From: an uncultured Eubacteriales bacterium
Lineage (GTDB): Bacteria; Bacillota; Clostridia; Oscillospirales; Acutalibacteraceae
Reading direction: 5' to 3'
DNA length: 64,000 bases
NCBI GenBank assembly: GCA_949292775.1
Contig: CASFBL010000004.1
Location: forward strand, 48,481-112,480
Shown here: positions 40,049 through 49,222 of the stretch, in pieces
How the letters are laid out: the number at the start of each line of letters is the position of its first letter
Numbering within the stretch: position 1 is the stretch's first letter
The notes under the pieces: generated by a model
Told to the model about the DNA's origin: nothing
Database searches by the model: none
The model's input: only the letters and a program-made list of their open reading frames with translations
Program-made: the position numbers and the translations under genes

Positions 40049-40585
40049 TTATTTCTCCACACTGTCTGTCAGCAAATGATCATCACCAACGCAATAAATC
40101 GCTTCACCGACAATATACCGGCAATCAATAAGTCCTATGCTTGAGTCGCGGCTGTCGGAGGAATGATTGCGGTTGTCCCCCATGACAAACACATAACCTT
40201 CCGGCACAGTCAGTGGATAAATCATATTCCCCTGCACCTGTACAGTCTCGGCAATATATGGCTCATCCAGCACTTTCTCGTCCACAATCACCTGCCGCCG
40301 GGAAGCATCAATGGTAACTGTCTGTCCTTCGGTCGCTATGACACGCTTAATCAAAACCTTGTCATAAGCATTGGGCTGTGAAATAACAACAATATCGCCG
40401 TATTCCACATTCCAGTCACGGGCAGTTATAATGACCTTATCCCCGTCTGACAGCGTATGTTCCATAGAACTACCGTCCACAGCGGAAATTTTAAACAAAA
40501 AGGTGAAGATGACGGCAACTGATAAAATAGCCGTCATCAAAATCGAAGCAAAATCATAAAAGTTCGAAAGTGTTTTATTTTGCAT
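40049..40585 (-). CDS. lepB: Signal peptidase I (second of a tandem pair)
   Basis: A 178-residue type I signal peptidase: one N-terminal membrane helix, catalytic serine in DGSSMEHTL, catalytic lysine in VLIKRVIA, and the family box VFVMGDNRNHSSDSR. It removes signal peptides at the outer membrane face. Its start overlaps the stop of the first lepB by 11 bases, so the two are co-translated. Confidence 0.96.
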   Translation of the reverse strand: MQNKTLSNFYDFASILMTAILSVAVIFTFLFKISAVDGSSMEHTLSDGDKVIITARDWNVEYGDIVVISQPNAYDKVLIKRVIATEGQTVTIDASRRQVIVDEKVLDEPYIAETVQVQGNMIYPLTVPEGYVFVMGDNRNHSSDSRDSSIGLIDCRYIVGEAIYCVGDDHLLTDSVEK

Positions 40586-41171
40586 TATTATCTAACTTCC
40601 AATCGCCAAAAGGATAAAATCTGAATTCCGCAACACCAAGAATATAGCGCGTATCAATAAAACCGACAGTTGTAGAACGGCTGTCAAGCGACTCATTACG
40701 GTTGTCGCCCATAACAAATACATGCCCTTCCGGCACTGTAATAGGAAACGCAACATCAGACATGCGGTGTGTAGCTTCATTGATGTAGGGCTCAGAAAGA
40801 ACCTCTCCGTTTACCGTTACCGTTCCTTCAACAAAATCAATATCAACCGTATCGCCGCCCACAGCAATTACACGCTTTATCAGCGGTTCATGCAAAGAGT
40901 TCGGTTGCGTAATCACTACAATATCGCCGCGGTCAATGCTCGGATTGATTGCGCGAACAGCAAGCCAGTCTCCGTTTTGAAGCGTTGGAACCATAGATTC
41001 TCCACTGACCCCTACAATTCGAAAACAAAATGTAAAAACAATCAGAATCGTAATAAAAGCAAAAATCAGAGAGTCCAGCCACTCATACACAAACTTCCAT
41101 GTTTTAGATGGCTTGCTTGCAGCGATTTCAAAATCAATATAAGGAATTTCAAACTGTTCGGTTTTTCTCAA
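40575..41171 (-). CDS. lepB: Signal peptidase I (first of a tandem pair)
   Basis: The protein of about 198 residues has a longer cytoplasmic N-terminus (about 35 residues) than its neighbour, one membrane helix, serine in SGESMVPTL, lysine in PLIKRVIAVGG, and VFVMGDNRNESLDSR. I favour TTG 41171 after AGGTG; a GTG three codons upstream is the alternative. The two copies differ clearly, so this is an old duplication, and they may divide substrates. Confidence 0.94.
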   Translation of the reverse strand: MRKTEQFEIPYIDFEIAASKPSKTWKFVYEWLDSLIFAFITILIVFTFCFRIVGVSGESMVPTLQNGDWLAVRAINPSIDRGDIVVITQPNSLHEPLIKRVIAVGGDTVDIDFVEGTVTVNGEVLSEPYINEATHRMSDVAFPITVPEGHVFVMGDNRNESLDSRSTTVGFIDTRYILGVAEFRFYPFGDWKLDNNAK

Positions 41172-41269
41172 ACTACACACCTACCCTATTATGGCTATTT
41201 TACAACAAATATAACAAGATTGCAATATAAACCGAACAGTAAAAAATCTTTTCCGCGTCGCAATTCTAA

Positions 41270-41310
41270 AAACACCAACAGCAGAAGGTGCAAATGCATC
41301 TTCTGCTGTT
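41270..41310 (-). terminator. Terminator of the dlt-like operon
   Basis: AACAGCAGAAG (41277-41287) pairs with CTTCTGCTGTT (41300-41310); T-rich sequence follows on the minus strand. Confidence 0.9.
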
Positions 41311-41317
41311 TAATGTA

Positions 41318-42268
41318 TCAGCCCTTTACGGACTGATGATAGCGTTTTAGCGCCTCATTCCAAGAGGCATACTGCGCATCGCTGCGGTGGTCTTCAAAAG
41401 AGAATCGTTCTTGCAAATATCCACTGTAATAATCAGTTACTTTGACAGCGCCCTGGTAACTAAGATGATCACCGGCATCTCTTGTATCCAGATTCCAATC
41501 CATTTTTAAATCGTCAAGCAAGTTCATATCCATGTACGGAATGTTGTATTCCTTCGCAAACGCCTGCACACCATTATGGCGTTTATAGTTCCAATTCTTT
41601 GTGCTTGGCGTGCTGACGAAAAAAAGCTCTGCGTCATTTTTTTTACAAAGCTCTATAATTTCCAACAGGCAAAGCTCATTCATCTTTGGAATTTCTTCTG
41701 GTTCATCCGTATATTTCATATAGTCGAGATTGGTGGCAGGCACGACCTTGTTGCTGTATCTATACCCTTTATTATCGTCTGTCCAAGTATATGAAATAGC
41801 GCTTCCAAAATCATTGATTGATAAATTCTTCCATCGGTCATGATATTGCAAAACAGAAAAGTAGCTTTGCCCTTTGGAAAACAGATAACTTCCTAATCCG
41901 TATTTTCGGAAAATTACATCCGTCTCTAAAACAACGACTTTGGGTTTTTGTGTTTTAAACGCCTGTTGTATATAGCGGCTGGAATCATACAACGGCTGTA
42001 AAGGTGTTCCGCAGACATAAGAGGTATATCCGTGTTTTTCCCAAATCAGCATAGGTGAAAAAGAACAATAGCTTTCACTGTCTCCCACAAAAAGAACATC
42101 GATTGTATTTTCTTTTTCGCCCAAAATGCCATTTGCAGACACCATATCCATGCCGAATGCTTTTTGATTGTTTTTAGGCGTGACAACATAGGAACATCCC
42201 AGCAGCAAAAGGATCAGAATCAGGAAAAATGAGATACAGCGAAAAACGGCTTTCCATTTTCCTTTCAT
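41318..42268 (-). CDS. DltD-like SGNH protein, membrane-anchored or lipoprotein
   Basis: A 316-residue protein with a hydrophobic N-terminus (about residues 8-24) ending LLGC at 22-25, which could be a lipobox or simply a membrane anchor. An SGNH-type domain follows: the serine block FVGDSESYCSF (S64) and a late D-x-x-H in DAGDHLSYQGA. It is the last gene of the dlt-like operon, 18 nt after the MBOAT gene, so it probably finishes transfer of the acyl group outside the cell, as DltD does for D-alanine. Identity to DltD itself is weak, and the name is by position and fold. Confidence 0.78.
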   Translation of the reverse strand: MKGKWKAVFRCISFFLILILLLLGCSYVVTPKNNQKAFGMDMVSANGILGEKENTIDVLFVGDSESYCSFSPMLIWEKHGYTSYVCGTPLQPLYDSSRYIQQAFKTQKPKVVVLETDVIFRKYGLGSYLFSKGQSYFSVLQYHDRWKNLSINDFGSAISYTWTDDNKGYRYSNKVVPATNLDYMKYTDEPEEIPKMNELCLLEIIELCKKNDAELFFVSTPSTKNWNYKRHNGVQAFAKEYNIPYMDMNLLDDLKMDWNLDTRDAGDHLSYQGAVKVTDYYSGYLQERFSFEDHRSDAQYASWNEALKRYHQSVKG

Positions 42269-42286
42269 GCTTCAAAGCCCCCTTTC

Positions 42287-43879
42287 TTAAAAATTCGCAT
42301 AAATCGGTTCAACCGGAATGTAGCCGGCACCATACGCACCGAAAATGATAATAAAAAGAATCAGTGCGTAACTGACTGCCCAGCGGACCGCTGTGTTTTT
42401 TTCTGAGAGTTTCCCGCGCACATTTATACCTCTTTCGCGAAGAACTCCTATGGTGAAAACAATTAAAACAGCAACAAAAACAATCAAAAAATCATGTTTA
42501 TCCATACCAAGGGTAAATATGCTGCCGTCTTTAATCGTTTTTAAAGAAAAACCGGTAAAAATATTTCGGAACATATAAAGCCCAGCCCGAAGCCCGTGCG
42601 CTCGGAAAAACAGCTCGCCGAAGCAAACCAATATGGTTGTTTTAACAACCTGTATGCAGTGATAAGCTGTGCTTTGCCGATTGATATGCAGCTTTTCAGC
42701 ACAAGTCTTTACAAAAGGCTCCGTAATATTTGCAGTCAGAATCAGTGCAAAATGATACATGCCAAAGAAAATATATTTCCAGCCTGCACCATGCCAAAGT
42801 CCGTTGCAAATCCAAACACAAAACAGCGCAACCGCACCGGCTAAAAGCGGTCCAAAATGATTGCCCAGTCGCTTTCTGGCAGAGACAGTAAGTCGTTTTA
42901 GCGGCTTGGACATGGAAACGGGATAAAAAATGTAGTCCCGGAACCATGTACCAAGCGTAATATGCCATCTTGTCCAAAAGTCAGAGATGGATTTTGAAAA
43001 AAACGGCTGTTTAAAATTCTCCGGTAACTGCACACCGAAAATTTCCGCTGTGCCGATTACGCAATCCATTGTTCCAGAAAAGTCCATATACAGCTGGCAA
43101 GTATATAATACCATTGCTATCGCAGTCACACCGCCGTCATGCTCGTTGAAATCTGTAAAAACATTCTGAATAAAAATGTTCAGTCGGTCGGCAACGACCA
43201 CTTTTTTCATCAAGCCATATAGAATTCGCTGACAGCCCGAAGTAAGATTTGCAAATTGGATTTTTTCGCCTTCCCAAAGCTGCGCGCAGGTTTGACTGTA
43301 GCGACAGATTGGGCCTTCCATAATTTGCGGAAAGAAACTTAAGAATAATGCCAACCGAAAAATATTTCTGTCCGCGTGAACTGTGCCGCGATATACATCA
43401 AACAAATAAGAAGCCGCTTGCAGTGTGTAAAACGAAATGCCAATGGGTAAAATGAATTGTGGAATCGGCAATGCAAAAGGAACTTTTAATACAGCAAGCA
43501 AGCTGTTGATATTGGTGCCAAAGAAGTCTGCATATTTCAGCACAAGCAGCACACCGATTTGCAAAAGAATTGCTGCCGTTACAATTTGCCGAAGCTTTCT
43601 TTGATAATTTGCCTTGACAGCCTTTTTGTTTTGTTTTTCTGTTTCAAGCAGCAAGCGATCGCGTTCGCTTTGTATGGCATTCATCCAAATTCCGAAATAA
43701 TGTATGGAGCAGGTAGAATACACAAGATAAAGCAGCAGCTTGCCGCTTATGGACCAAAAAAACAAGTAGCTTGCACCAAGAAGTACTTTCCAGCGGTGTT
43801 TTTGCGGTAAAATGCTATAAAGCAAAATAACAGCCGGCAAAAACAGCCCGAGATAAGCAAGCGAAAAATAAGAAGTCAT
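42287..43879 (-). CDS. DltB-like MBOAT transferase
   Basis: The 530-residue multi-pass protein has the MBOAT core FWTRWHITLGTWFRDYIFYP and CNGLWHGAGWKYIFFG with the catalytic histidine. It is longer than typical DltB (about 400 residues) and closer to AlgI size. Because a carrier protein gene ends one base before its start codon, it is expected to take its acyl group from that carrier, as DltB does from DltC, and pass it across the membrane. The polymer that receives it is unknown. Confidence 0.88.
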   Translation of the reverse strand: MTSYFSLAYLGLFLPAVILLYSILPQKHRWKVLLGASYLFFWSISGKLLLYLVYSTCSIHYFGIWMNAIQSERDRLLLETEKQNKKAVKANYQRKLRQIVTAAILLQIGVLLVLKYADFFGTNINSLLAVLKVPFALPIPQFILPIGISFYTLQAASYLFDVYRGTVHADRNIFRLALFLSFFPQIMEGPICRYSQTCAQLWEGEKIQFANLTSGCQRILYGLMKKVVVADRLNIFIQNVFTDFNEHDGGVTAIAMVLYTCQLYMDFSGTMDCVIGTAEIFGVQLPENFKQPFFSKSISDFWTRWHITLGTWFRDYIFYPVSMSKPLKRLTVSARKRLGNHFGPLLAGAVALFCVWICNGLWHGAGWKYIFFGMYHFALILTANITEPFVKTCAEKLHINRQSTAYHCIQVVKTTILVCFGELFFRAHGLRAGLYMFRNIFTGFSLKTIKDGSIFTLGMDKHDFLIVFVAVLIVFTIGVLRERGINVRGKLSEKNTAVRWAVSYALILFIIIFGAYGAGYIPVEPIYANF

Positions 43880-43880
43880 G

Positions 43881-44111
43881 TCACGCTTCCTCCTGCAGAC
43901 GGATGATCATTGCCCAGATGTCCTCTGCAGAATTAAAGTTCGCCGGTATGATTTCCACAGTCGGAATAACAATATCAAATGTGTCTTCCAGTTCTGCAAC
44001 CAGCGAAAGGATGGACAAAGAATCCAAATAATGACCGTCTACCAAATTACGGCAGGTCGTAAAGTCTACTTCAGGTTGAATTTCTTCTAAAATCTCATAC
44101 AGTTTTTCCAT
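43881..44111 (-). CDS. DltC-like acyl/aminoacyl carrier protein
   Basis: A 76-residue acidic four-helix carrier. The phosphopantetheine serine is S31 in GHYLDSLSILSLV, followed by ELEDTFDIVIP, as in DltC. ATG 44111 is chosen for GAGGAA 7 nt upstream; an in-frame upstream start lies inside the decarboxylase gene. It sits between the decarboxylase and MBOAT genes with single-base gaps, which suggests tight coupling of loading, modification and transfer. Confidence 0.9.
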   Translation of the reverse strand: MEKLYEILEEIQPEVDFTTCRNLVDGHYLDSLSILSLVAELEDTFDIVIPTVEIIPANFNSAEDIWAMIIRLQEEA

Positions 44112-44112
44112 T

Positions 44113-45303
44113 TTAAAGTTCCTCACTTTCATAATTTGGTGTGTTTATGGGGTAAGTCTCTTTGGACTCGCGGACAAGGATAGGTTTGTCATCCTTAAGC
44201 AGAACGACTGTGGGAAGTGCGCGGCTCAAAAACAAGGAGATGCCCTCTGTCATGCAATAGGCTCCTGCGGTTTCAAAAGCAAAGAGGTCGCCGGGGTGCA
44301 ATGCGCGCACAGGAAGCTGTTTGACAAGAATGTCGTTAATGGTGCAAAGCGAACCGCACAAGTTCCAGTTTTGTAGTTCTTCGTCAGGTTTTTGGGGCAG
44401 CAACTGAAACTTTGGGATTTTCATAGCCATTGTTTGTCCGTAATAAACAAGGTGGTGAATCCCGCCGTCTAAAATTGCATAGTTTTCCCGGCGGTTTTTC
44501 TTTACATCTACAACGCGGGTCAGATATGTACCACAGGAAGCTGCAATACTTCTGCCAAGCTCCAGTGTTATTTTGGTTTGAAAACGCATATTGTCCAAAA
44601 GCTCTGAAAAGCCTTTGAGATACTCTGCTTCGTCATAGGACTCTGCCAAAAAATATGCAACAGGAAGTCCTGGTCCAAATTCCAATTCTTCTGCAGTAAA
44701 GCCATATTCACTCTGCAGTTTCAAAAGGAAATCATCCAAATAGTCAAGCTCCCGCTTTAAGCGCTTTAAAGACTGTTTTTGCGTACCGGAAAAATACTGT
44801 ATCCCTTTAAACTTCAAACACGGTGAATTGCAATACTGTTGCAAAATATCAACAATCTCGTCTTCATTAAGCCCAAACTGATTACCGCTTGTAAGCCTTA
44901 ACAGCACCGGAAGCTTTATGCGGTACTTTTCCGCCAAATCATATAACAACCGGAATTGCGTCATGGATTCCACTGTATATACGCCGACTTCGTGTTTTGT
45001 TTGAATCAAATTCTCAATAAACGCCGGTGTTTTGTTTACACCGGAGATCACCATTTTGCTTTCCGGGACAGAGAGGGATTCGCAAATATTCACTTCTCCG
45101 GGCGAACACAATTCAAAGCGCTCAATACAGTCAACCAGCTCACGGATAATAAAAGTGTTTGCCTTGACAGCGAAGCAAAGGTTCACATGAGCGGGCAGTG
45201 CACTTTTCAACTCGGCAACGCGTTTTTGCAGTGTAGATATATCAAAAACATACAGTGGGGTTGGAAAAGTATTTGCAATTTTTTCTATTTGCTGCTTATT
45301 CAT
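44113..45303 (-). CDS. Fold-type III PLP decarboxylase (LysA/BtrK-like) in a dlt-like operon
   Basis: The 396-residue enzyme has PLP lysine K47 in CFAVKAN, the phosphate-binding ELGR at 248-251, C320 in GSLCTIND (the GxxCxxxD decarboxylase box) and Y349 in GAYC. These active-site residues are those of diaminopimelate and ornithine decarboxylases. At the motif where those enzymes usually have a histidine stacking on PLP (HxGS), this protein reads IQYFSGTQ, with F171. Its place between an adenylation enzyme and a carrier protein argues against housekeeping lysA and recalls BtrK, which decarboxylates glutamyl bound to a carrier protein. The true substrate is unknown. Confidence 0.85.
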   Translation of the reverse strand: MNKQQIEKIANTFPTPLYVFDISTLQKRVAELKSALPAHVNLCFAVKANTFIIRELVDCIERFELCSPGEVNICESLSVPESKMVISGVNKTPAFIENLIQTKHEVGVYTVESMTQFRLLYDLAEKYRIKLPVLLRLTSGNQFGLNEDEIVDILQQYCNSPCLKFKGIQYFSGTQKQSLKRLKRELDYLDDFLLKLQSEYGFTAEELEFGPGLPVAYFLAESYDEAEYLKGFSELLDNMRFQTKITLELGRSIAASCGTYLTRVVDVKKNRRENYAILDGGIHHLVYYGQTMAMKIPKFQLLPQKPDEELQNWNLCGSLCTINDILVKQLPVRALHPGDLFAFETAGAYCMTEGISLFLSRALPTVVLLKDDKPILVRESKETYPINTPNYESEEL

Positions 45304-46814
45304 TTTGATTTACCTCCTAACTCCGCTTTCAATGCTTTTCTATCGATTTTTCCGTTTTTGTTCAGCGGGAACATTTCCTTTTGCACAAGCTTGCCGGGCA
45401 CCATAAACACCGGCAGACGCGCCGACAATTCCCGGTGCAGGTCTTTTCGCTGTGCTGTGCCAATATAAAAGCCATACAAATTGCCTTTTTCCTCATCGAA
45501 CACACAGCAGGCGCGCTCCACGCCATCCGCTTCGGTCATCGCCTTTTCAATTTCTTCCAATTCAATTCGGTGACCTTTATATTTGATTTGAAAGTCTTTT
45601 CTACCGGCAAAATAAAGATTTCCCTGCGCATCATACTTACCCAAATCTCCGGTACGATAAATACGGTCATAATACTTTTTGTGCAGTGGGTTTTGTGTAA
45701 ATTTTTCACATGACTGCTGCCAAGCATTGTAATATCCAAGCCCGACCGCTGTACCGCCGACACAAATTTCGCCTGTTTTATCCTTTTCACAAATCAGACC
45801 ATCCGCCTCGTCGAGCAAAAATACATTTTCGTTTTGAAATGCTTTCCCGATTGGAAGTCCGTCAGCGTATTCCCGTTCCCGTGTTACCCGGTGAAAAGTA
45901 CAGTTGCAAGTGATTTCTGTCGGCCCATACAGGTTAACAAATTCCGCCTGCGGCAAATGCGACATCCAGCTTTTTAAGTGCTTCATCGGCATGACTTCGC
46001 CGCTGAACAGAACCTTATTCACCGTCTGCGGCGTTCGATAGTCTAAACCGTGGAAAGTGCTAATTAAGCAAAGCGCAGACACCGCCCAAATCATAGTCGT
46101 GACTTTATGCTCACAAATGAAGTCCAACAGCTTTGCCGGGGACGAAAATAAGTGCTTCGGCACCAGCACGAGGTCCGCACCGGTTTTGATTGCAGCGTAA
46201 ATATCTTTCACCGAAACATCAAAATCGAAAGGCGCCTGATTGGCAATGACATCTTCTTCGGTAATGGAGAATTCCGCCGTAAAAACATCCATAAAATCCA
46301 GAACGCTTCTGTGACTGATGACTACACCTTTCGGCGTGCCTGTGGAGCCGGAAGTAAAATTTATATACAGCGGCAGGTTGTCGGTATGTAGATTTCGAAT
46401 TTCCTGCAAACGCATTTTGTCTGGGGCAACGGTTTGCAACTCGTTTATCAGCAACACTTTTTCCTGCGAAAAAATTTCTAAAGCAAGGGTTTTATGTGCT
46501 TGGTCTGTAATCACATATGGCGCTTGCAAAACCGACTGCATTTGAGAAAGCCTTTCTTGCGGCAGCTCCGGATTAAACAATGTGTAAAAACCACCTGCAA
46601 ATAAGACACCAAAAAAAGCGGATAATGCATCGACACTCTTTTCAAGCAGTACAGCAACCGGTTCTCCTGCTATATCCAGTCCGGCAAGCGCAGTACCAAC
46701 CCTTTGGCTCATCAGCAGCAACTGCGGGTAAGTTACCTCCGTATTTTCATCCTGCACTTTTCCTGACGGAACAAGTTTTGCTGTTTTTTCCAAATACTCT
46801 AACACATTGGTCAC
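45300..46814 (-). CDS. DltA-like amino acid adenylation enzyme
   Basis: The 504-residue protein of the acyl-adenylate superfamily has the P-loop-like TSGSTGTPKG (154-163), the aspartate that would bind the amino group in FDFDVSV (D199), NLYGPTEITCNCT, TGDLGKYDAQGNLYFAGRKD and the catalytic lysine near the end in PLNKNGKIDRKAL. Length and pattern are those of DltA, which activates D-alanine and loads DltC. The DltA cysteine that precedes GE in the FCGE block is a serine here (FSGE, S271), so the substrate may differ. It is the first gene of the operon; the start at 46814 is GTG or nearby and its ribosome site is AAGGAAG. Confidence 0.85.
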   Translation of the reverse strand: MTNVLEYLEKTAKLVPSGKVQDENTEVTYPQLLLMSQRVGTALAGLDIAGEPVAVLLEKSVDALSAFFGVLFAGGFYTLFNPELPQERLSQMQSVLQAPYVITDQAHKTLALEIFSQEKVLLINELQTVAPDKMRLQEIRNLHTDNLPLYINFTSGSTGTPKGVVISHRSVLDFMDVFTAEFSITEEDVIANQAPFDFDVSVKDIYAAIKTGADLVLVPKHLFSSPAKLLDFICEHKVTTMIWAVSALCLISTFHGLDYRTPQTVNKVLFSGEVMPMKHLKSWMSHLPQAEFVNLYGPTEITCNCTFHRVTREREYADGLPIGKAFQNENVFLLDEADGLICEKDKTGEICVGGTAVGLGYYNAWQQSCEKFTQNPLHKKYYDRIYRTGDLGKYDAQGNLYFAGRKDFQIKYKGHRIELEEIEKAMTEADGVERACCVFDEEKGNLYGFYIGTAQRKDLHRELSARLPVFMVPGKLVQKEMFPLNKNGKIDRKALKAELGGKSK

Positions 46815-46859
46815 GGCAATTACTTCCTTTACTTTTGATTACAGGTATTTTTTAACATG

Positions 46860-46903
46860 TCTATATTCATGCTTACTTTATGCAATCTTAAGTTTTCTAA
46901 AGA
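46860..46903 (-). promoter_or_regulatory. Promoter and response-regulator boxes of the dlt-like operon
   Basis: A -10-like TATAGA (46860-46865, minus strand) is preceded by tandem boxes read on the plus strand as TTTATG (46877), TTAAG (46888) and TAAAG (46898) with 5-nt gaps, a period of 10-11 bp. This is the style of OmpR/PhoB-family sites. The same series occurs upstream of the response regulator gene. Confidence 0.65.
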
Positions 46904-46904
46904 A

Positions 46905-46936
46905 AAAAGAGATGCACCTAAAGCAGCATCTCTTTT
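46905..46936 (-). terminator. Terminator after the histidine kinase gene
   Basis: AAAAGAGATGC (46905-46915) pairs with GCATCTCTTTT (46926-46936), leaving the kinase and the dlt-like operon as separate transcripts. Confidence 0.85.
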
Positions 46937-46950
46937 GTCGTTTTATTTTG

Positions 46951-48522
46951 TTATGTAAGTGGCAGCCTGATTTCAAATTCCGTACTCCAGCCTTTTCGCG
47001 GCGGGTCGACAAGGCAAATGGAACCCTTGTGCAGTTCTATGATTTTTTTAGTGATACCCATGCCAAGACCTGTGCCGCTGCCGGAGGTTCTTGCGCTGTT
47101 TCCGGTCACAAAAGGCTCAAACACGGTCTCGCGAATCTCCCGAGAAATACCGGTGCCGTTGTCTGCCACCCAAAGAGACAACGCCTTTTTTTCACGCCGC
47201 AGCACAAAATAAATGGTGGTTCCCCGTTCGTTATGTTTCATTGTGTTTTCCGTTAGATTATCCAACACGCGGCGCATCAGTTTTGAATCAATTTCAGCGC
47301 AAATCGGGGTTTCCGGTATATCCGGTTCCAAAGCAAATCCACGCATGTGAATTTCTTCATATTTTTCACTCAAATACGCCCTACAAAATTCCGAAAAATC
47401 CAAACTTTCCGTATTCAGCTCATATTCAGGATGTTCCAGCTTCGTATAAGTAAACAGCGTATCCATCATCTGGGCGCTTTCTTCAGACTTATGATAAATC
47501 GCCTGTAAATAAGTCTTTTCCTTTTCAGGCGGAACCATTCCGTCCAAAAAAGCTTTCGCATATCCCTGAATAACGGTAAGCGGTGTTTTTAAATCGTGTG
47601 AAACATTCGCAATCATTCGGTATTTCTCCTCAACTTCATGCTCTTTCTCTGACTGTGTTTGCTCCAAACGATCTAAAAGGCTGTCAAAGCTTTGAATTAC
47701 CGGCTGAAATTCCACCGGAATGGCATTGGGCGGAATGTTCATACGCTCGCCTTTGGAATAAGAGGATATGGCTTTTTCAAAAGGCGCTGCGGACCGGCGG
47801 ACTTTCCGGCTGAACAGAACAGACTGGATAACGACCACCAAAAGCAAAAGCGGAATGAAAATCAGCCACAGGCGGTCGGTTTCATTCAAAAGCTTTTCAT
47901 ATGCCATTGCGGTTACGCGCGGCGACACAAAAACCAAAAGCCGCTCTTCTCCCGTTTCAGTAAAATAGATGTATTTTTCAATATTCTTTTTACCCTGATA
48001 TCCCCCGCGAATCAACTCGATTTCCTGTTCCGACAGAGACTCTTTTTCCGGGAAAAGACCGCCGGCAATAATTTTATAGCTCGAATCCATCGTGCAATAA
48101 TTCGCAACATACCACGCATCGTTTTCAGTGTTATATACATTCAGCAATATGTTATAGCGAATTTCCCCTGAATCCGTTACACTTTGAAAAAATTGGTAGT
48201 ATTTGTTATTGTCATAATCCGGAATCAGTAAGATGTCTCTGTCTTTTAAATAATCCTTCAGTTCAACGCTGGTGGAATACAGGGGCTCGTTTGCTGCATT
48301 AAAAACAATGTAATCACAGTTTTTAAATTTCCAATACGGGATAGCAGCAAAATCATCACATTGCAAAGCATCATCATATTCTAAAAGGTTATCTAAAGCC
48401 GGAAAGGAATTGTTCAGTTTCGCATTCACTGCAAAACTGAACAACAAATATAAACCAAGAACAACGGCGGAATAAACGACAAAATATATAATGCAGGTTT
48501 TTACAAAGCTTTTTGAGCGCAT
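46951..48522 (-). CDS. Sensor histidine kinase
   Basis: The 523-residue membrane kinase has a first helix near residues 10-32, an outer sensor domain of about 160 residues, a second helix (LIFIPLLLLVVVIQSVLF), a HAMP-like linker, the H box MIANVSHDLKTPLTVIQGYA, the N box LDNLTENTMKHNE and G boxes DNGTGIS and GSGTGLGMGI. The sensor domain has no motif I recognise. It is paired with the response regulator just upstream. The start may be ATG 48522 or TTG 48537, which overlaps the regulator stop. Its position suggests it senses envelope stress or cationic peptides; that is inference. Confidence 0.9.
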   Translation of the reverse strand: MRSKSFVKTCIIYFVVYSAVVLGLYLLFSFAVNAKLNNSFPALDNLLEYDDALQCDDFAAIPYWKFKNCDYIVFNAANEPLYSTSVELKDYLKDRDILLIPDYDNNKYYQFFQSVTDSGEIRYNILLNVYNTENDAWYVANYCTMDSSYKIIAGGLFPEKESLSEQEIELIRGGYQGKKNIEKYIYFTETGEERLLVFVSPRVTAMAYEKLLNETDRLWLIFIPLLLLVVVIQSVLFSRKVRRSAAPFEKAISSYSKGERMNIPPNAIPVEFQPVIQSFDSLLDRLEQTQSEKEHEVEEKYRMIANVSHDLKTPLTVIQGYAKAFLDGMVPPEKEKTYLQAIYHKSEESAQMMDTLFTYTKLEHPEYELNTESLDFSEFCRAYLSEKYEEIHMRGFALEPDIPETPICAEIDSKLMRRVLDNLTENTMKHNERGTTIYFVLRREKKALSLWVADNGTGISREIRETVFEPFVTGNSARTSGSGTGLGMGITKKIIELHKGSICLVDPPRKGWSTEFEIRLPLT

Positions 48523-48523
48523 T

Positions 48524-49222
48524 TTAAACTTTTTCAATTTTATAACCCAACCCCCTAACGGTTTTTATGTATTTCGGTTCCGACGGATTATCTTCGATTT
48601 TTGCGCGCAGGTTAGAAATGTGCACCATCATGGTATTGTCATCGCTTTCGTAAAAATCGCCGTTAATGCAGGAATACAACTGCGCTTTTGTAAAAATTCG
48701 CTCCGGACTTTGCATCAATTTGGCAATAATCTTAAGCTCTGTGGAGGTCAATGGCACAATAACCCCTCTTTTTCGTAGCAGAAGTTTTTGTAAATCCAGC
48801 TCCAATTCACCGACAGTCAGTCTTTCCGGTTCTTTTTCTGCTGACTGTGCCCCCAGCTGATAATAGCGGCGCAGCGTTGCTTTGATATATGCCACAATTT
48901 CCAGCGGATTAAACGGTTTGGTTATGTAAGCATCCGCCCCGATATTCAGCCCAAGTATTTTATCATTGTCCATGTTTTTGGCTGAAACAATGATAATGGG
49001 CATATTGCTGAATGTGCGAATGCTTTTTATCAAATCATATCCATTCATTTTGGGCATCATAATATCGACCAAAGCAATAGACACATTCTTTTCTTTTGCA
49101 ATCTCTAAAGCATCTTCACCGTTATCTGCGGAAAAAACCGTAAATCCGTCGCTGTTTAAATATAAAGTTAAAAGCTCTACGATGTCGCGGTCATCTTCTG
49201 CAATCAAAACTTGATAATCCAT
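48524..49222 (-). CDS. OmpR/PhoB-family response regulator
   Basis: A 232-residue regulator. The receiver domain has the acidic pair ED10-D11, phospho-acceptor D53 in ALVDIMMPKMNG, T/S and K in IIVSAKN. The C-terminal winged helix has LTSTELKIIAKLMQSPERIF and MVHISNLRAKIEDNPSEPKY, KTVRGLGYKIE. Such regulators bind tandem direct repeats spaced about 11 bp, which is exactly what is found upstream of this gene and of the dlt-like operon. Confidence 0.95.
   Translation of the reverse strand: MDYQVLIAEDDRDIVELLTLYLNSDGFTVFSADNGEDALEIAKEKNVSIALVDIMMPKMNGYDLIKSIRTFSNMPIIIVSAKNMDNDKILGLNIGADAYITKPFNPLEIVAYIKATLRRYYQLGAQSAEKEPERLTVGELELDLQKLLLRKRGVIVPLTSTELKIIAKLMQSPERIFTKAQLYSCINGDFYESDDNTMMVHISNLRAKIEDNPSEPKYIKTVRGLGYKIEKV

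Follow-up and report, generated by a model that had tools for sequence, protein, structure and literature searches.

A conserved five-gene operon in the genome of an uncultured Eubacteriales bacterium (Acutalibacteraceae) probably encodes a Dlt-like pathway for surface aminoacylation in which a decarboxylation step has been inserted. We give this reading, which is based on sequence comparison, a probability of roughly 0.55, with a beta-alanyl ester as the most likely product. The operon lies in a 64,000-nucleotide (nt) stretch of contig CASFBL010000004.1 (assembly GCA_949292775.1, forward-strand positions 48,481 to 112,480), referred to here as the window; all coordinates are positions within it. 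It encodes an adenylation enzyme (A enzyme), a fold-type III pyridoxal phosphate (PLP) decarboxylase, an acyl carrier protein, a membrane-bound O-acyltransferase (MBOAT) and an SGNH-type protein. The evidence comprises the gene set and its conservation, an adenylation pocket that is not that of DltA, a decarboxylase active site that is not that of LysA, a tyrosine motif fused to the MBOAT, and the predicted SGNH fold of the last protein.

Teichoic acid D-alanylation sets surface charge, cationic-peptide defence and immune recognition in Gram-positive bacteria. The proposed surface ester would differ chemically from this decoration and could outlast D-alanyl esters, since its amino group would not be alpha to the ester. 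We found no description of such an operon in the open-licence literature searched, as covered by titles and abstract starts in the top-ranked part of longer result lists. If real, the system would join natural-product chemistry, namely decarboxylation on a carrier, to envelope modification. It would also be readable from genomes through a near-invariant pocket code, and the pathway is small enough for reconstitution from five proteins.

Gene organization and conservation

The five genes are tightly packed on the minus strand and occupy exactly 41318-46814, so that the extent and order given in the original prediction hold to the base. Successive junctions are a 4-nt overlap (A/PLP), a 20-nt overlap (PLP/carrier), a 1-nt gap (carrier/MBOAT) and an 18-nt gap (MBOAT/SGNH). 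In order of transcription, the genes are as follows.

45300..46814, minus strand: adenylation enzyme, 504 amino acids, GTG start
44113..45303, minus strand: fold-type III PLP-dependent decarboxylase, 396 amino acids; K47 (PLP lysine), Cys320 and Asp324 assigned by homology
43881..44132, minus strand: acyl carrier protein, 83 amino acids; presumed phosphopantetheine serine S38 (LDSL)
42287..43879, minus strand: MBOAT acyltransferase, 530 amino acids; H306/H363 and fused C-terminal motif PIYANF (Y527)
41318..42268, minus strand: SGNH-type protein, 316 amino acids; S64 (GDSE), D264 and H268; one N-terminal transmembrane-like stretch

To survey conservation, the PLP protein served as sole bait in a scan of 84,980 species, each represented by one genome, and 116 relatives were confirmed. 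The best 80 of these 116 were kept as loci; as the scan was seeded by short peptides of the window protein, they are biased to close kin. All five genes are present in 74 of the 80 loci. The window's gene order is retained in 71, one of which has an additional MBOAT gene upstream, while three place the SGNH gene between the PLP and carrier genes with all five present. Five further loci reach a contig end before the missing genes. Within the 74 complete loci, the end gene is cut by the contig in five (L036, L038, L063, L069, L074), and four show gaps of 275-525 nt between operon genes. The five-gene order is therefore widely conserved, as the original prediction had supposed, and an arrangement private to this genome is excluded. 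The gene set is carried by Oscillospiraceae, including Ruminococcus bromii, by Lachnospiraceae, Butyricicoccaceae and Erysipelotrichaceae, and by the actinobacterial Enorma and Eggerthellaceae.

More distant relatives were obtained from a class-wide sample, in which the PLP family occurs in 21 of 393 genomes (E up to 1e-40), some members being only 32-46% identical. A divergent set of 13 loci was assembled from 12 of those 21 genome regions plus a variant locus, L130, from a congeneric genome. Nine of the 13 hold all five genes, five in the window order and four in three other orders. None of 21 LysA-like control loci (2.8-4.2 kb viewed in each; 16 checked by motif) has an A, carrier or MBOAT partner. 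The five-gene arrangement bears the hallmark of a functional unit, in that its parts remain together while their order changes; a chance neighbourhood is ruled out by the complete set in 74 of the 80 loci found with the PLP bait. The residue counts below were taken from rows of 81 loci, less those dropped for length or score (five for the A enzyme, two for the carrier, six for the MBOAT, eight for the SGNH protein).

Adenylation enzyme and substrate pocket

The first enzyme scores over the cut-off of the curated model for amino-acid adenylation domains (TIGR01733, 330.5 vs 317.4 bits) and far under that for DltA (TIGR01734, 285.5 vs 559.85 bits). Its predicted fold is confident (predicted local distance difference test, pLDDT, 90.2), and among the Protein Data Bank (PDB) matches listed, ApnA A1 and PheA are closest, with DltA (3e7w) at rank 6. 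It had been called DltA-like; this stands insofar as it is an amino-acid adenylation enzyme of the DltA/nonribosomal peptide synthetase kind, but it is not DltA by the curated model. Classical DltA is ruled out by the sub-cut-off score together with the pocket described next.

With pocket positions assigned in what we take to be PheA numbering, the specificity code is D199 V200 K203 W243 L269 S271 L295 C303 N304 K489. At nine of these ten positions, 75 or 76 of the 76 members share the residue, and position 269 is Leu in 69 and Met in seven. The code recurs as DVKW(L/M/I)S(L/V)CNK in 9 of 12 further A enzymes from the divergent loci. In DltA, according to PMC8972799, Leu197, Met200 and Cys268 cup the D-alanine methyl group, and Asp197 is the contact of the amino group (the numbering being mixed). 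A constant-offset match to these positions places V200, K203, S271 and D199 here as the respective counterparts. V200, K203 and S271 are each present in 76 of 76 members. By this match, the pocket is unlike that for D-alanine: the amino contact is kept, and the methyl pocket has turned basic. The near-invariant basic residue fits a substrate that would bear an additional free carboxylate. This agrees with the earlier proposal that a dicarboxylic amino acid may be loaded.

A second subtype, seen in L130 and L136, has the pocket code IARWCSQASK, in which the amino-contact aspartate is gone and an arginine occupies the lysine position. Its gene order is A-carrier-PLP, and L130 (G035:C28:17000-29000) continues with an MBOAT gene (tail FVYMQF) and an SGNH gene. 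That both subtypes have a basic residue at this position agrees with a substrate carrying a free carboxylate, and the missing aspartate of the second would fit a different distance between the amine and the activated carboxyl. In L136, no MBOAT gene is in view, and the genes adjoin what by eye are HAD- and aldolase-like genes.

PLP-dependent decarboxylase

The second enzyme matches the domains of ornithine, diaminopimelate and arginine decarboxylases (PF02784/PF00278) and falls under the cut-offs of both the lysA model (TIGR01048, 174 vs 298 bits) and TIGR03099 (162 vs 478 bits). Its PDB matches include a diaminopimelate decarboxylase (3n2b, E 8.8e-31) and BtrK (2j66, E 1.1e-30). The lysine and cysteine of fold-type III enzymes are present, and K47, C320, D324 and E353 are conserved in 81 of 81 members; the carrier gene follows the PLP gene in loci that reach it. 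Four LysA features, namely the His, the Arg-Tyr loop, the glutamate of the CE motif and the tyrosine of the YN motif, are absent from the 18 rows of a motif table that belong to the PLP family. We take these residues to have substrate-binding roles in LysA. The family instead shows the form LC(T/S)xxD, as in BtrK and one TIGR03099 member. Neither by model nor by residues, then, does the sequence identify a diaminopimelate decarboxylase, which counts for the original prediction.

These results bear on two explanations involving diaminopimelate. In the first, ordinary D-alanylation genes would simply have caught a neighbouring lysA by chance, as might be supposed from the DltA, lysA, DltC and DltB models being among the best curated matches. 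This is highly improbable and already contradicted: the five genes stay together across loci and in permuted orders, the scores are far under the DltA and LysA cut-offs, the pocket is not that of DltA, and the window genome has a separate LysA-like gene elsewhere (277.9 bits, just under the 297.9 cut-off). The same gene and the active-site residues rule out a housekeeping LysA within the operon. In the second, diaminopimelate would be loaded by one carboxyl and decarboxylated at its other centre, giving a lysyl thioester and then lysyl esters. The overall similarity to LysA agrees with this, and K203 could hold the distal carboxylate. We nevertheless consider it very unlikely, as the residues that presumably serve the distal half of the substrate in LysA (Arg-Tyr loop, CE glutamate) are absent in the 18 family rows and W243 makes a long pocket improbable.

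Given that the enzyme also scores narrowly over the cut-off of PF01168 (N-terminal domain of alanine racemase) and that Dlt systems use a D-amino acid, it might alternatively be a racemase or epimerase that supplies or makes a D-aminoacyl group, in which case the operon would be a D-aminoacylation system close to Dlt. The window genome has an alanine-racemase match over cut-off elsewhere (G000:C13:54668-55704, partly L143), a point against this reading; that match is spread over two adjoining frames and may be broken, a point in its favour. Also against it, the C-terminal domain is of the Orn_DAP_Arg_deC type, the decarboxylase-type cysteine is present in 81 of 81 members, and the A pocket is without the D-alanine cysteine; on balance a racemase is very unlikely. 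The alanine racemase gene itself looks interrupted by a frameshift or an assembly error.

Carrier, MBOAT and SGNH proteins

The carrier is just over the PF00550 threshold (21.2 vs 20.8 bits) and under the cut-off of the DltC model (26.8 vs 68 bits); S38 is conserved in 79 of 79 members. The MBOAT matches PF03062, and also the DltB model TIGR04091 below cut-off (177 vs 375 bits, over residues 128-425 only). H306, H363 and Y527 are conserved in 75 of 75 members. The C-terminus reads PxYAx(F/Y) in all 75, with the first F of the motif FXYXXF replaced by P in every one, while the L130 MBOAT ends in the canonical FVYMQF. As described in PMC12148441, DltX and PatA use the FXYXXF tyrosine to hand the acyl group on to an SGNH protein, and Neisseria PatA ends in FIYANF. 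No separate DltX was found in 41001-47200, the region searched, where F.Y..F occurs only in one plus-strand frame and away from its C-terminus. A separate DltX microprotein in the operon region was accordingly rejected, the tyrosine motif being fused to the MBOAT instead.

The last protein has no model match in NCBIfam and Pfam at E 0.01. Its AlphaFold model is confident (pLDDT 95.9), with Foldseek matches to TesA, PAF-AH, DltD (6pfx) and PatB (7tlv). S64 and H268 are conserved in 73 of 73 members and D264 in 70 of 73. By this predicted fold and the conserved Ser, Asp and His, the protein is classed as SGNH-type. Two loci, L093 and L100, have two tandem SGNH genes after the MBOAT gene, which may point to a second acceptor or to paired subunits.

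Proposed pathway

From these features we infer a substrate, an on-carrier timing of decarboxylation, a product and a polymer acceptor. The amino acid activated by the A enzyme would be acidic, the most likely candidate being L-aspartate activated at its beta-carboxyl, with D199 holding the free amino group and K203 the alpha-carboxylate. The activated amino acid would be loaded onto the phosphopantetheine of carrier S38, where the PLP decarboxylase would remove the free alpha-carboxylate to leave an omega-aminoacyl thioester: beta-alanyl from aspartate or, with glutamate as substrate, 4-aminobutyryl. Transfer across the membrane would fall to the MBOAT, with the tyrosine in its C-terminal motif receiving the group. 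Finally, S64 of the SGNH protein would accept the group and esterify an anionic surface polymer, adding positive charge.

The choice of aspartate and a beta-alanyl product is based on the precedent of VinN/VinL/VinO and FlvN, as described in PMC11284099, and on the order of the corresponding gene trio in a Sinorhizobium polysaccharide cluster. Within the model, the chief competitor to aspartate is glutamate, which would give a 4-aminobutyryl group. The shorter chain is favoured because of the pocket tryptophan and because no lactam-protecting enzyme was seen.

Several observations weigh against this pathway. D199 and K489 are, we assume, the usual contacts of alpha-amino acids, and domains that activate glutamate at its alpha-carboxyl can presumably also have a lysine where K203 stands; glutamate activated in this way would be closed to alpha-decarboxylation. 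There is also a resemblance of the code to what we take to be a serine code. In a 44-sequence tree, which did not include VinO and whose bootstrap had not settled, the PLP family forms one clade. A short branch (96/81) links this clade to one unannotated relative and to two decarboxylases from siderophore clusters, and the tree does not place it with BtrK. Both siderophore-cluster enzymes also have LCTxxD, and motif and phylogeny are therefore no proof of a carrier-bound substrate. MBOAT and SGNH genes are not in view in 4 of the 13 divergent loci; L136 and L139 show A, PLP and carrier genes without an MBOAT gene in view, L134 has PLP and carrier genes and no A gene, and L140 has a different A enzyme. 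L090, which is cut 5' before the A gene, has an unrelated 559-amino-acid frame and no MBOAT gene in the 1.8 kb after the carrier gene. As for the acceptor, the glycerol-phosphate polymerase domain PF04464 was not found in the window genome, and it is present in 15 of 31 genomes tested (25 that carry the gene set and 6 that do not). The window genome has two PF00884 matches, and the one examined is a 640-amino-acid protein that belongs to the phosphoglycerol-transferase/LtaS superfamily but scores under every cut-off. The frame in L090 (1569-3245), which follows the PLP and carrier genes, looks membrane-protein-like.

The tree neighbours speak for a simpler scheme, in which decarboxylation by the PLP enzyme comes first, on an amino acid in its free form, and the resulting product (beta-alanine, 4-aminobutyrate or lysine, for example) is what the A enzyme loads. 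Siderophore-cluster decarboxylases act on free small molecules, which counts for this scheme. It would, however, leave the near-invariant pocket lysine facing a product with no extra carboxylate, and in the natural-product precedent VinN rejects the decarboxylated amino acid (PMC11284099). We regard decarboxylation of a free substrate as unlikely.

Comparison with known systems

The operon shares with the Dlt pathway (DltXABCD) an adenylation enzyme, a carrier, an MBOAT and an SGNH protein, as well as the logic of a charge-changing aminoacyl ester. It differs in having a PLP decarboxylase, a pocket not suited to D-alanine, an A enzyme under the DltA cut-off, and a tyrosine motif fused to the MBOAT with no separate DltX found in the operon region. 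In the latter respect it resembles the PatA/PatB system of peptidoglycan O-acetylation, in which an MBOAT with a fused C-terminal shuttle tyrosine works with an SGNH partner (PMC12148441). PatA/PatB, in contrast, uses acetyl-CoA as donor and neither a carrier nor an amino acid. By sequence, the present system brings together a carrier of the Dlt kind and a fused motif of the PatA kind.

The proposed loading and decarboxylation have parallels in natural-product biosynthesis. In vicenistatin biosynthesis, as PMC11284099 relates, VinN loads 3-methylaspartate, not the decarboxylated product, onto the carrier VinL, where it is decarboxylated by VinO; the listed substrate of FlvN is Asp, and the starter unit of fluvirucin B2 is beta-alanine. 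By that description, both systems resemble the proposed pathway in having a standalone A enzyme, a carrier and a PLP decarboxylase act in this order on an acidic amino acid, but the product goes to a polyketide rather than the surface and the hosts are mostly Actinomycetes. Loading followed by decarboxylation on a standalone carrier, as the original prediction envisaged, thus has a chemical precedent; for the present operon it is a deduction, and one that the PLP tree does not favour.

The parallel drawn there with butirosin biosynthesis (BtrJ/BtrI/BtrK) also holds in part. BtrK and LysA are about equally good matches to the PLP enzyme, which puts BtrK level with the best-matching solved structure, and decarboxylation takes place on a carrier to judge from the PDB name of 7ru7. 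The tree, however, does not join the family to BtrK. BtrJ further differs in being an ATP-grasp ligase and not an A enzyme. Taken as a whole, the five-gene interpretation appears plausible and is partly supported.

The exosortase-A-associated pair TIGR03098/TIGR03099 provides a further comparison. It has the same ligase-decarboxylase-carrier order within a polysaccharide cluster, as on Sinorhizobium meliloti pSymB (L118), but the present proteins score far lower against these models (202.5 vs 592 and 162 vs 478 bits) and have a different pocket code. The pSymB locus also has no MBOAT or SGNH gene among its 13 annotated features. It suggests that the ligase-decarboxylase-carrier trio is a reusable module. 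The L118 trio sits in a glycosyltransferase/deacetylase cluster. On a Streptomyces plasmid (L119), an unusual-looking cluster contains genes for a PLP enzyme, a holo-ACP synthase, a hotdog protein, an AMP-binding enzyme and a carrier, and adjoins ectoine synthase and diaminobutyrate acetyltransferase genes.

DltA in genomes that carry the gene set

No DltA over the curated cut-off was found in any of 26 searched genomes that carry the gene set, including those of Ruminococcus bromii, Agathobaculum, Pseudoflavonifractor and Enorma; the best scores stop at 306 bits. Two of the 26 (G101, G152) share identical coordinates and are probably one assembly. In the class-wide sample, DltA-like proteins of more than 400 bits (408-575 bits) occur in 22 of 393 genomes, with only three over the strict curated cut-off. 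As listed, these genomes do not overlap with those that have the PLP family; as about one shared genome would be expected by chance (hand estimate), this is not significant. A parallel system would suggest what carriers lacking a DltA over cut-off use instead. That gut Clostridia, Erysipelotrichaceae and Coriobacteriia replace D-alanylation with beta-alanylation, or another omega-aminoacylation, of an envelope polymer through a carrier-bound acidic amino acid is a tentative proposal, to which we give slightly less than even odds.

Transcription and neighbouring genes

Three features flank the operon.

46951..49222, minus strand: two-component system, possible operon regulator; kinase 48537-46951, VanR/OmpR-type regulator 49222-48524
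46815..46950, minus strand: intergenic stretch, presumed operon promoter region; hairpin 46895-46950 follows the upstream kinase gene (-16.5 kcal/mol, z -3.9)
41262..41318, minus strand: terminator-like hairpin 3' of the last gene (-23.9 kcal/mol, z -5.6)

The five genes probably form one transcript, because hairpins follow both the last operon gene and the upstream kinase gene. The hairpin at 41262-41318 is absent from a separate list of predicted terminators, and no minus-strand promoter-like site is listed in 46815-46950 ahead of the operon.

The window kinase and regulator match many regulator models, all below cut-off. Three or more upstream genes are in view in 62 loci, the window included. 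In 29 of these, one of the nearest three upstream genes encodes a kinase of the same cluster, and in 24 both kinase and regulator are found; of the 33 clustered kinases, 9 are encoded on the opposite strand. This recurrent pair, a further likeness to Dlt, is presumably analogous to DltRS. It suggests, and does no more than suggest, that the adjoining two-component system places the operon under envelope-stress control. In L133, where the order is MBOAT-SGNH-A-PLP-carrier, an apparent response regulator and a kinase-sized membrane protein (by eye) directly follow the carrier gene, and the regulatory association may thus survive rearrangement.

Across the 81 loci, the recurrent flanking clusters are the kinase (32), the regulator (28) and ABC-type ATPases (17), with every other cluster at nine or fewer. 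No dedicated amino-acid supply gene is therefore a constant neighbour, and the flanks do not point to a particular acceptor polymer. Directly downstream in the window, beyond the terminator-like hairpin and on the same strand, 40049-41180 holds two tandem genes that by eye are signal peptidase I-like.

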